A DNA stretch of 64,000 bases, from NCBI GenBank assembly GCA_916610825.1, contig OU744447.1, positions 34,948,869-35,012,868 of the forward strand, read 5' to 3'. A model generated the notes under the pieces. That model was not told the DNA's origin, did not search any database, and was given only the letters and a program-made list of their open reading frames with translations. The stretch comes from Haliclystus octoradiatus (Eukaryota; Cnidaria; Staurozoa; Stauromedusae; Haliclystidae). The position numbers and the translations under genes were made by a program. How positions within the stretch are numbered: the stretch's first letter is position 1; each line of letters opens with the position of its first letter. Below, one piece after another: positions 1 to 64,000 of this stretch.

Positions 1-17
1 GGATACAATTCCAGATG
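1..17 (+). CDS. Gene A partial exon at window edge (tentative)
   Basis: The first bases read D-T-I-P-D and then a donor GTATGA at 18, leaving phase 1. That is the phase needed by the exon at 817. It would be the tail of the long helical exon (equivalent of 30227-30926 in gene B). It is too short to prove by itself. Confidence 0.35.
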
Positions 18-63200: not shown

Positions 63201-64000
63201 CTCCTCATCCCATTTTGCTTCGAATAACAAATCTTTGATAGCAAAATTAGTGACTGACTTGAAATCGTTTTGTGTCTTGGTTAATGATGGGCACTTTACC
63301 AATGATAATAATTTTTCAATGGGAAGCAATGATGCTTTAACAATTACGCTATACGCACTGTCTTGTTTTACAATTTTTCCTATATACGTAGCTTGATTGT
63401 CAGTTTCGTTGAATCTTATGTCGAAAGTAGGTGACTGTTCAGTGTCTTCTCTTTTGATTTGAACTTGTAAAATATTAACATTTATAAAATCTTTGGATAT
63501 CCAACTTAAAGTTTTATGCAACTCAAAAAATATTTCCACAAAATCAGTAGCTCTTCTGTAGATTATTTTATCAAATATCATTTCTTTCGCACCTGATATA
63601 AGATTTGACTGAAAGAAATCGTCATTAACCTTATAGGCACATGTCACAATTGCCTCGACATCTAATCCCTTTTTTGGTAAAAAGATTTTCAAATCATCTG
63701 TGTTGATGACGATACTTACACTAGATGTAATTGGCATGTTAGATAACCCCTTTTCTGAACAATTACGTAACCTTTCTTTTAATTTCATGGGAAAGTGTAT
63801 TGCCAGTCCCTTTGGTATTGTAGAGTTGAATTCGTGAAAAAACAAACCATCTATCACATTGGATATTTTCGGATTTGATATTAAAGGAATTTCACGGATT
63901 GAGACAGACATAACTGCTTCGGTCTCGATATCTTCAAATAATTCCAATTTTGGAAAGATATCAACGCTTGTAAAGGAAGTTACGATTTTCGCCAAAGATG
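39139..64000 (-). CDS. Gene C: large modular paralog of B, 15 exons in window, 5' end outside
   Basis: Exons in transcription order: 64000(partial)-63190, 62693-62506, 61299-61222, 58421-58143, 57371-57063, 54899-54753, 53720-53487, 52623-52199, 50553-50283, 48969-48791, 48326-47651, 45967-45788, 44240-44172, 41808-41579, 39255-39139. All have GT/AG borders and matching phases, about 1398 codons. The layout copies gene B exon for exon, except for two extra phase 1-1 exons (61299-61222 and 58421-58143) encoding a basic then an acidic segment. N-x-S/T sites (N-S-T, N-C-S, N-E-T) in the first exon suit a secreted protein. The signal-peptide exon should lie beyond 64000. The function is unknown. 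Confidence 0.85.
39955..40655. repeat. Diverged tandem duplication interrupted by a MITE
   Basis: Unit 1 (about 39955-40110) and unit 2 (about 40205-40655) share GCACTCTGGTAT, AATAACAGGCGAA/ATAACAGGCAAA, TTCACTGAGAAGCACTGAT/TTCACTGAGCAGCACTGAT and GCCTGTCTGCTACT/GCTTGTCTGCTGCT in order. The 282-bp MITE sits inside unit 2. All of it is in the last intron of gene C. Confidence 0.65.
40344..40625 (+). mobile_element. hAT-like MITE, copy 1 (282 bp)
   Basis: Terminal inverted repeats of about 31 bp begin CAGAGCCATCTATTTACAAG. A perfect 8-bp duplication GTGCTATT flanks it (40336-40343 and 40626-40633). The 8-bp duplication and CAGAG-type ends fit hAT elements. It is non-coding and nearly identical to copy 2, so the insertion is recent. 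Confidence 0.9.
40972..41274. mobile_element. MITE with G-run terminus
   Basis: Starts CCGGGGGGGGGGTATTTCCT and ends GGGAGTTACCCTCCAGGAA. The inverted internal word GTGCCACTTTGG / CCCAAAAGTGGCAC is about 45 bases in from each end. It lies in the last intron of gene C. Confidence 0.55.
41579..41808 (-). CDS. Gene C penultimate exon (230 nt)
   Basis: Acceptor AATCTTTCAG, donor GTAAGT, phase 1 in and 0 out, exactly the length of the A and B counterparts. It opens L-A-Y-W-I-D-D-V, against R-E-W-I in A. It is flanked by inverted copies of the 282-bp MITE. Confidence 0.87.
41909..42190 (-). mobile_element. hAT-like MITE, copy 2 (282 bp, inverted)
   Basis: Reverse-complement copy of 40344-40625 with only about seven differences and the same 282-bp length. 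Its own 8-bp duplication ATTAGGCC lies at 41901-41908 and 42191-42198. It lies 100 bp upstream of gene C exon 41808-41579. Confidence 0.9.
43311..43499 (-). mobile_element. Pogo-like MITE family 2, copy 1
   Basis: TGCAGTTGAATCCGGTATTA at the left and CATTTTACTGA at the right. The reverse complement aligns along its length with 46136-46330 and 52668-52860 (shared TATTCTGTCAATA and CTAATTACGGACTCTGTCAA-like words). Confidence 0.6.
43767..43991 (+). mobile_element. hAT-like MITE, diverged shorter copy
   Basis: CAAAGCCATTTATTTACAAA at the start and CAGATCGCTCTTG at the end. The interior (GATGCCAAGCACGTGATTTT) matches the 282-bp family with internal deletions (225 bp). No target duplication remains, so it is an older insertion. 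Confidence 0.75.
44172..44240 (-). CDS. Gene C 69-nt Y-W exon
   Basis: Acceptor TTTATTTGTAG, donor GTACGT, phase 1-1, exactly 69 nt as in A and B. It reads E-K-Q-E-I-K-Y-W-Y-R-A-A-K-S. Primary similarity to the paralogs is low apart from Y-W, but length, phase and position agree. Confidence 0.75.
45788..45967 (-). CDS. Gene C exon, charged helix
   Basis: Acceptor TTACTCACAG, donor GTCTGG, phase 1-1, 180 nt. S-P-E-C-I-Q-T-R-S-I-V-N-K-Y stands where B has N-S-C-E-I-A and A has H-S-C-S-I-A; then a Lys/Glu helix. Confidence 0.8.
46006..46095. mobile_element. 90-bp hairpin element
   Basis: TTTGAGATAAATGAAAGCGA and its complement close a hairpin with arms of about 33 bp. Both sides carry a direct repeat close to ATAATATTTCAGTT. 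It sits 39 bp upstream of the acceptor side of gene C exon 45967-45788. Confidence 0.65.
46136..46330 (+). mobile_element. Pogo-like MITE family 2, copy 2
   Basis: TACAGTAAAACCCGGCAATA at the start and TTGCCTGATTCAATTGTA at the end. The inverted ends are bounded by TA on both sides, as for Tc1/mariner-type insertions. Confidence 0.65.
47651..48326 (-). CDS. Gene C long helical exon (225 codons)
   Basis: Acceptor AATTTCATAG, donor GTATGT, phase 0 in and 1 out. It opens F-K-G-L-F-S-Q-L-Q-D-Y with a long amphipathic/hydrophobic helix, then a strand-like piece with H-V-C-L-Y-G-G and T-F-C-I-G-P-N-F, then a strongly charged E/K coiled coil. Counterpart: B 30227-30926. Confidence 0.87.
48791..48969 (-). 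CDS. Gene C Cys/Trp-rich exon
   Basis: Acceptor CACCTTTCAG, donor GTAAGA, phase 1 in and 0 out. Six Cys and six Trp in 60 residues: G-C-K-G-F-L-G-W-N-K-R-C-W, I-G-C-P-K-W-D-S-C, A-I-C-V-A-W-C. C-V-A-W-C equals C-V-A-T-C in B. Probably disulfide-bonded. Confidence 0.85.
49875..50205. repeat. Two diverged direct repeats, period about 209
   Basis: GCAGGTGTCTTTGAAGTTTA at 49875 recurs as GCAGGTGTCTTCGAAATTCA at about 50084, followed in both by TTCGTTCTC, TGTAACTCACAC and TACGAATG. The next stretch (AATGATTGCTTTTCG) also recurs near 50723. It lies in a gene C intron. Confidence 0.7.
50283..50553 (-). CDS. Gene C coiled-coil exon ending C-x3-C-P
   Basis: Acceptor TTTTTCAG, donor GTAAGG, phase 0 in and 1 out, 90 codons. 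Continuous K/E/A heptads, then D-C-D-K-E-C-P-K. Counterpart: B 28228-28501. Confidence 0.87.
51340..51610. repeat. Possible degraded G-run repeat
   Basis: GGTTCAACCACCAGGGGGGT at the left and GGGGTATCCATGGTTCAACC at the right. It is reminiscent of the 40972-41274 element but too diverged for a firm call. Confidence 0.3.
52199..52623 (-). CDS. Gene C V-G-P beta module
   Basis: Acceptor TAATCTATAG, donor GTAAGA, phase 1 in and 0 out, 141 codons. Beta-rich, with two internally similar halves: G-T-L-N-I-L-G-Y-S-I-I-G-E-L-E-I and G-F-L-N-V-C-G-I-G-V-E-V-Q-L-H-V, separated by N-V-G-P-I-F-D-V-E-I. Counterpart of B 27073-27563, and the best-preserved example of the module in the window. Confidence 0.88.
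52668..52860 (+). mobile_element. Pogo-like MITE family 2, copy 3
   Basis: Aligns over its length with 46136-46330 (AATCCGGCAATAACG; GGTATTCTGTCAATAGCAG; TGGATTCTGCCAAAACC; ATTGCCAGATTCAACTGTA). It lies in a gene C intron. Confidence 0.65.
53487..53720 (-). CDS. Gene C exon
   Basis: Acceptor TTATTGAAAG, donor GTAAGA, phase 1-1, 78 codons, strand-like: F-G-G-T-L-H-L-G-K-I-G-T-P-D-V-I-E-I. Counterpart of B 25051-25287. Confidence 0.85.
54753..54899 (-). CDS. Gene C exon
   Basis: Acceptor CTTTACTAG, donor GTAAGC, phase 1-1, 49 codons, strand-like (L-E-I-E-F-T-M-N-A-L-W). Counterpart of B 21126-21281. Confidence 0.82.
55131..56443. repeat. Duplicated unit: about 100 bp unique plus long (TTTA)n array
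   Basis: The sequence CCCGTAATTATCAACAACAG through TTTTATATTTTATATTT at 55131-55229 is repeated at 56035-56133 (period 904). Each copy is followed by TTTA repeats: about 200 units at 55230-56034 (one T-to-G change near 55533) and about 77 units at 56134-56443. It lies in a gene C intron. Translated frames through it are not genes. Confidence 0.95.
56822..56934 (+). mobile_element. hAT-like MITE, truncated diverged copy
   Basis: TTCCTGCACATGCGCACTTT, CCAGGCCAAAAAGATA and the terminal AATGGCTCTG match the 3' half of the 282-bp family. The 5' half is missing. Confidence 0.7.
57063..57371 (-). CDS. Gene C exon
   Basis: Acceptor TTATTTGCAG, donor GTAAGA, phase 1-1, 103 codons. T-I-G-Q-C-K-G-D-E-V-C-N-F-L-R parallels the two Cys of B exon 4; then strands such as Q-L-T-I-L-G-N-F. 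Counterpart of B 19699-20022. Confidence 0.86.
58143..58421 (-). CDS. Gene C acidic exon with poly-Glu run (no counterpart in B)
   Basis: Acceptor GATTTGTAG, donor GTAGGA, phase 1-1, 93 codons. Starts T-S-S-E-I-E-D-D-D-D; most residues are E, D or N, with about 16 consecutive Glu near the end, then G-M-E-F-A-H-E-A-M-N. Expected to be disordered and strongly negative, as in calcium-binding or mineral-associated segments (inference). The Ser/Pro/Leu frames on the other strand are shadows. Confidence 0.8.
59246..59815. repeat. Diverged direct repeat
   Basis: ATGAAATGTGACAAACTATA ... AGCGAGCTGC at about 59249-59305 recurs as ATGAAGTGTGACAAGATTAA ... AGCGAGCTGC at about 59750-59805. It lies in the intron between the acidic and basic exons of gene C. 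The element type is unknown. Confidence 0.5.
61222..61299 (-). CDS. Gene C short basic exon (no counterpart in B)
   Basis: Acceptor TGTTTACAG, donor GTACGT, phase 1-1, 26 codons: V-V-V-L-V-S-S, then K-K-V-A-A-R-R-K-K-R-K. Joined to the next exon this gives R-K-K-R-K-R, which fits a furin-type R-x-K-R site. Support comes from splice sites and phase only. Confidence 0.65.
61513..62149. mobile_element. Fold-back element, arms about 210 bp
   Basis: TTTAATAACAAAAATCAAAG at 61514 and its complement ending about 62149; the arms stay complementary through AACTTTTATACTGTAAATAA and TTGTAAAACAAAGAACAAAA, with a spacer of about 200 bp. The arms contain AACGTTTCGGCTATCGTCTG / GATGGCCGAAAAGTTGAG, a tail-like motif. 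ACTGATAAATTTA occurs near both outer borders. It lies in a gene C intron. Confidence 0.8.
62506..62693 (-). CDS. Gene C exon
   Basis: Acceptor ATATTTACAG, donor GTACGT, phase 2 in and 1 out, about 63 residues (F-S-G-I-P-Y-I-Y-G-Y; G-A-W-L-S-G-V-D-I). Counterpart of B 17747-17937 by position, phase and length. Confidence 0.83.
63190..64000 (-). CDS. Gene C large N-terminal-region exon (partial)
   Basis: Open frame from the window edge to donor GTGATG, closing in phase 2 as B exon 2 does. About 270 residues of beta-rich sequence with sequons N-S-T, N-C-S and N-E-T. It continues beyond 64000. The apparent first Met of the frame is not a real start. Confidence 0.87.

Follow-up and report, generated by a model that had tools for sequence, protein, structure and literature searches.

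What keeps a set of large, related genes on one chromosome of the stalked jellyfish Haliclystus octoradiatus in a common exon layout, and why do two subfamilies of them lie close to each other? The DNA considered here, referred to as the window, is a stretch of 64,000 nucleotides (nt) of chromosome 2 (C2; G000:C2:34948869-35012868) that carries gene B together with parts of gene A, which begins to the left of the window, and gene C, which begins to its right. Sequence comparison places genes A and B in one subfamily, the B-type, and gene C in another, the C-type; P3, at 35.046 Mb on chromosome 2, is a close neighbour paralog of gene C. Searches were made against the whole genome of 262 Mb in 33 contigs, in which contig C5 is chromosome 4 and C11 is chromosome 9. 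The mitochondrial COX1 of this genome is read with TGA as a sense codon, and the mitochondrion otherwise resembles those of medusozoans. An original prediction, made from the letters of the window, had described A, B and C as three paralogs of a fast-evolving secreted family with a frozen gene structure. The reading preferred here, at a probability of roughly 40%, is that A, B and C are members of a single ancient family of large proteins without a curated name, and that the B and C chains form a single extracellular heteromer.

Homology and shared exon architecture

The relationship between the two subfamilies was addressed by profile-profile comparison, as the original prediction had proposed, using the joined exons E8-E14. 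A profile of A and B matched a profile of C, P3 and a copy on contig C5 (the C5 copy) with a probability of 96% and a score of 74.9, compared with 2% and 26.4 for the reversed control and scores of at most 25.5 for 20 column shuffles. E8-E9 alone gave 93% (reversed 13%), E11-E14 alone 26% (reversed 0.1%), and the C5 copy as the lone target 80% (reversed 0.3%). With single-exon profiles only E9 came close, at E-values of 0.0036 (B) and 0.0038 (A) and a best reversed decoy of 0.049; in a four-sequence set, E9 of A and B matched the C5 copy directly (1.8e-7 and 4.2e-7). By eye, five sequences (A, B, C, P3 and the C5 copy) all keep cysteines in three places, namely where E8 ends, within E9 and where E11 begins; A, B, C and P3 also share a cysteine at or just before the terminus of E14. 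Three of the short motifs named in the original prediction were also confirmed: E12 contains Y-W, E9 contains C-V-A-x-C, and E8 closes with C-x3-C. Judged by their sequence profiles, A, B and C are homologous over E8-E14, and no match appeared that would place them in unrelated families.

The shared exon order, phases and small-exon lengths claimed for the three genes hold as well. E11 measures 174, 174 and 180 nt in A, B and C, respectively, E12 measures 69 nt in all three and E13 measures 230 nt in all three, with phase 2/1 for E11 and E12 and phase 2/0 for E13; the exons of A and B were searched with the phases of C imposed, those of C having come from the comparison with P3. A density control, which gave counts only, found on both strands of the 64 kb three open exons of the same length, phase and splice score for 69 nt, three for 230 nt, and two each for 174 and 180 nt. 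The 69- and 230-nt candidates must be the exons of A, B and C themselves, because these exons pass the thresholds; the splice thresholds were derived from these same exons, and the agreement is therefore not a blind prediction. When exons were chosen without regard to phase in 11 open frames (six of B and five of A, E12 being left out), C-type phases ranked top in nine and the reported exon itself in seven. Among the misses, a 766-nt exon outranked the third-placed 700-nt version of B E10 with the same phases, and 700 nt was adopted because E10 of A is 700 nt long; B E11 ranked third and B E13 second, and in A E13 a 197-nt exon with the same phases was placed above the 230-nt one.

Family size and linked B-type and C-type genes

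The family extends well beyond the three paralogs originally described. A genome search with E7 of gene C returned 20 matches at E<=1, 18 of them at E<=1e-7. Eight of these 18 are C-type (at least 41% identity, next best at most 35%) and lie on chromosome 2 at 31.107, 31.174, 31.338, 31.453, 34.772, 34.909, 35.001 (gene C) and 35.049 Mb. The other ten comprise five D-type loci, each at least 47% identical in E10 to the D-type query, one locus at 31.40 Mb, three on chromosome 1 and one on contig C5; a weak match was also present at 33.236 Mb (E 0.0037), and a match on C6 was chance-like (E 0.99). E10 of gene B was found in nine places, all on chromosome 2, and a search with another copy as the query recovered the same nine plus one match at E 0.66. 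Adding the nine B-type loci, which include A and B, to the 18 gives at least 27 loci, all counts being lower bounds. The copies that the original prediction had suggested looking for beyond the window edges are thus present, with both types in two clusters on chromosome 2, and its old local expansion of one family with a frozen gene structure is borne out.

All eight C-type and nine B-type loci are located on chromosome 2, and each of the two clusters holds both types. Counting B-type and C-type loci only, the order is B C B C B C C B at 31.08-31.48 Mb, where another family member, at 31.40 Mb, sits between pairs, and C B B C B B C C B at 34.77-35.07 Mb, where the fifth locus is gene A. A one-to-one assignment of all eight C-type loci to B-type neighbours is possible; four of the resulting pairs are in tandem with B upstream, three are tail-to-tail (including the pair in the window) and one is divergent. 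Partners stayed close although their relative orientation varies. Distances among B-type copies in E10 follow those among their C-type partners, both in E7 (eight pairs, Mantel r 0.81, 9/40,320 permutations) and in E10 (seven pairs, r 0.73, 26/5,040 permutations), two of the B copies spanning just 157 amino acids (aa) of E10. With permutation restricted to within clusters the E7 comparison gave 9/576, or 1/144 and 2/144 when either recent copy was dropped, and the 31-Mb cluster alone gave 2/24. One recent block copy carried both partners, with offsets of 66,694 and 66,615 bases and 99% identity in the compared exons. This linkage and block copying show that a B-type and a C-type gene have been copied as units along chromosome 2 and kept close.

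The most likely reason for the two genes to have been copied and kept together would be that their chains assemble. In the proposed family layout, a long N-terminal beta-like part would be followed by helical or coiled-coil segments framed by cysteines, and the last exon would close with Cys, either alone or followed by a single residue. Within the family the C-type is the slower and the B-type the faster kind. A B chain and a C chain would join through the helical tail and disulfides into an extracellular heteromer.

Several observations weigh against this heteromer. Locus order alone is weak evidence, because random labels permit a full matching with a probability of 0.087. More than one matching is possible in the 34.8-35.1 Mb cluster, where the C-type locus at 34.90 Mb sits between a B-type locus at 34.886 Mb, which as the nearer B-type was taken as its partner, and gene A; the same cluster holds five B-type and four C-type loci, leaving one B-type unpaired. 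No B-type partner was detected for ten loci (the five D-type loci, C5, the three on chromosome 1 and the one at 31.40 Mb), and unrelated genes between partners were examined within the window only. The distance signal is weak for E10 of the C-type when permuted within clusters (26/144), and weak or absent in the 34.8-35.1 Mb cluster taken alone (2/24 with E7, 11/24 with E10). By hhalign, the two E10 types alone gave no homology between B and C (probability 3.5%), and the N-terminal half of B, which was assigned by position and phase only, lies outside the E8-E14 homology.

Finally, block duplication without joint function likewise gives linked pairs, and it is the main rival. In this plain segmental duplication, a serious if tentative possibility, blocks containing a single ancestral tandem pair would have been copied, and its products would work separately. 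The recent copy of ~66.6 kb, which moved both genes at once, is what such a process would leave behind, and the weak order, the unpaired B-type and the ten members without a detected B-type partner also fit it. It accounts less readily for pairs that stayed close despite changed orientation and near-saturated C-type synonymous sites, a saturation which implies that there was time enough for one partner to be lost. Assembly of the B and C chains stays the preferred reading. A more ambitious form of it appears unlikely, namely that the family is a new class of extracellular heteromer with at least eight pair units, each of one conserved and one fast giant chain whose assembly would be confined to the pair or would work best there. 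The outcome would be parallel and possibly mutually exclusive assemblies, specific to a tissue or stage or able to discriminate between partners. A tail-to-tail arrangement is also seen in two D-type members (G000:C2:31879691 (+) and 31911142 (-)), and pairing may therefore reach beyond the B and C types.

Selection and predicted role

Rates of nonsynonymous (dN) and synonymous (dS) substitution were calculated by the Nei-Gojobori method (NG86). Gene C and P3, whose proteins are 60% identical, differ by a dN of 0.272 and a dS of 1.68, giving a dN/dS of 0.16 over 1551 codons with the acidic E3 left out. E3 itself has a ratio of 0.65, and the other single exons with a computable ratio range from 0.05 to 0.43 (dS was not computable in 3 of 15 exons). 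Among 21 pairs of E7 copies, dS was not computable in eight; 12 of the remaining 13 fall at 0.05-0.18, and one, at 1.26, involves a recent copy with almost no changes. The C-type genes read as old copies under purifying selection, and their dS is near saturation, so that ages are minimum statements. Across the main cluster's four pairs, identity among the B-type copies is 42-48% in E10, compared with 56-67% in E10 and 64-84% in E7 for the C-type copies; on the strength of this lower identity, B is taken as the faster partner.

Such unequal rates between linked partners are the point in favour of a recognition or immune locus, the explanation to which the original prediction leaned, in which the fast B-type would diversify as a ligand or receptor, with the C-type as the conserved partner to it. 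This is distinctly unlikely in view of the low C-type ratios, both gene-wide and in nearly all E7 pairs, the Pfam scans, in which no immune domain exceeded its cut-off, and the lack of a later transmembrane-like segment in the B and C models, where no 19-aa window outside the first exons has a mean hydropathy above 1.64. Fast divergence under recognition-type selection is accordingly not borne out for the C-type, the subfamily that the dN/dS values cover. The family's predicted secretion fared better, in part: hydrophobic, signal-peptide-like first exons were picked in B and C by a hydrophobicity scan, from which both chains are predicted to be secreted, and the same scan found no such exon in P3. 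Under the preferred reading of B and C as joined extracellular chains, the role is expected to be structural or adhesive (mesoglea, cuticle, mucus or glue) rather than one in recognition.

Database searches

The scanned members of this giant-protein family of at least 27 loci had no match among the curated entries of Pfam and NCBIfam or among the PDB sequences. At the Pfam cut-offs there was no match for ten single frames of B and C, for 15 E7 copies, or for eight frames of the C5 copy plus two of B (the frames of B scanned in all being E0, E7, E8, E9 and E10; gene A was left out), and the lone immunoglobulin (Ig)-like match, in the C5 copy, reached 12.7 bits against a cut-off of 28.8 (E 0.12). 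At E<=0.5, the whole of C matched no Pfam family and the whole of P3 matched one irrelevant family (E 0.032). For C and P3, NCBIfam gave only weak matches (best E 0.0054), none of which was read as real. The best PDB profile matches were at E 0.43 for E7, 0.26 for C plus P3, and 0.66 and 0.021 for the two E10 types, and correspond to chance or generic coiled coil. E7 had no close relatives in prokaryote and virus collections, which were searched with one protein each in a way that finds close relatives only. An AlphaFold model of E7 from the single sequence had a mean predicted local distance difference test (pLDDT) score of 34 and was not used for fold search. Titles and abstract beginnings in the literature held no account of the family among the matches listed. 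Similar uncharacterised giant proteins may exist in other marine invertebrates. Large lipid-binding or yolk-like secreted proteins with long amphipathic beta sequence, suggested by long alternating hydrophobic stretches seen by eye and by strands in the very-low-confidence E7 model, are the least probable explanation, as Pfam scans found no vitellogenin N-terminal domain (whole C and P3, E0 of B and of the C5 copy) or other lipid-transfer domain, and the sole lipid-binding PDB match was apolipophorin-III at E 0.72 on the helical E8.

Gene models and other features of the window

Gene C was modelled by exon-by-exon comparison with P3, with splice sites picked where both genes support them. The model has 16 exons and 1704 aa; that of P3 has 15 matching exons, 13 of them identical in length, an agreement that is favoured by the joint choice of splice sites. 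Gene C lies on the minus strand, and its signal-peptide-like exon (65714-65570) is beyond the window, as is part of E0, which occupies 63190-64000 within it and runs to 64777. E1 (62506-62693) is followed by E2 (61222-61299), which ends in a furin-like RKKR site (residue 662) that the B model lacks, and then by the acidic, low-complexity E3 (58143-58421), which differs in length between C and P3. E4 (57063-57371) contains a Cys pair, and the intron between it and E5 (54753-54899) holds a 1.2-kb (TATT)n array of ~300 units at 55229-56443. Next come E6 (53487-53720), E7 (52199-52623), the query of the genome search described above, the coiled-coil-like E8 (50283-50553), the Cys/Trp-rich E9 (48791-48969) and E10 (47651-48326; 676 nt), which has 14 genome matches at E<=1. 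E11 (45788-45967), E12 (44172-44240) and E13 (41579-41808) are followed by the last exon, E14 (39139-39255; 117 nt), in which Cys is the penultimate residue. E14 was added to the models; in A and B its last codon before the stop encodes Cys, and C and P3 finish with Cys-Glu or Cys-Thr.

An inverted repeat of 296 nt, with arms that are 96% complementary and 1.3 kb apart, lies within gene C, one arm (40339-40634) between E14 and E13 and the other (41900-42195) between E13 and E12. A near-identical copy is found upstream of E0 of P3 (L046:8789-9105), and the repeat is probably a young mobile element. A fragment upstream of gene C (L048:5347-5601, window coordinate 69347-69601) has relatives in P3 introns and resembles the GIY-YIG endonuclease of a retroelement. 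Also upstream is a block conserved between C and P3 (window coordinate 71047-71157), which was rejected as a signal-peptide exon because it has no in-frame ATG. Outside chromosome 2, the compact C5 member is flanked by open frames that appear by eye to be integrase-like and reverse-transcriptase-like (L043:3-1196 and L044:3716-6286).

Gene B, on the plus strand, was built with the phases of gene C and then checked phase-free, giving a single open protein of 1501 aa in which no counterparts of E2, E3 and E5 of gene C were found. Its signal-peptide-like first exon (14357-14462) is followed by E0 (15804-17307), with 500 full codons. Four exons were then assigned by position and phase: an E1-like exon without sequence support (17747-17937), an E4-like exon with a Cys pair (19699-20022), an E6-like exon (21126-21281) and an E7-like exon of phase 2/0 (27073-27563), to which the E7 profile gave no match. 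The remainder consists of the helix-like E8 (28228-28501), E9 (29297-29472), the 700-nt E10 (30227-30926), E11 (31255-31428), E12 (33349-33417), E13 (34055-34284) and the last exon, E14 (35189-35299).

For gene A, also on the plus strand, E8, E9 and most of E10 lie left of the window in L059 (E10 match at C2:34948186), where a truncated second copy of the start of E10 (L059:7162-7314) directly precedes E10 as a partial exon duplication. The end of E10 occupies positions 1-17 of the window, followed by E11 (817-990), E12 (1515-1583), E13 (2454-2683) and the last exon, E14 (5259-5369).

Comparison with known systems

Local clusters of diverged paralogs are also found in other sessile animals, at Hydractinia Alr and Botryllus fuhc, and Alr-type allorecognition receptors combine Ig-like ectodomains with a transmembrane helix. 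The present locus resembles these systems as a local cluster of diverged paralogs in a sessile animal, but differs in that its Ig-like match is far below cut-off, no later transmembrane-like segment is seen in the B and C models, and the C-type is under purifying selection. In fibrinogen and laminin, coiled coils and disulfides hold related paralogous chains together, which is the kind of assembly proposed here for the B and C chains, but Pfam found no fibrinogen or laminin domain in C and P3. Collagen IV chains form heterotrimers. These paralogous chains are the products of neighbouring genes (PMC5395295). The jellyfish family shares this organisation, with paralogous chain genes kept close and copied together, although the signal is weak inside one cluster; the likeness is one of gene organisation and not of membership, as C and P3 have no collagen repeats or NC1 domain (Pfam) and orientation is mixed here, being tail-to-tail in the window. 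If the linked B and C chains do assemble, they would add an independent example of a rule resembling that of collagen IV, under which the genes for subunits move and are duplicated jointly. The example would come from a poorly studied animal class and would offer eight natural replicates of chain pairing in one genome.

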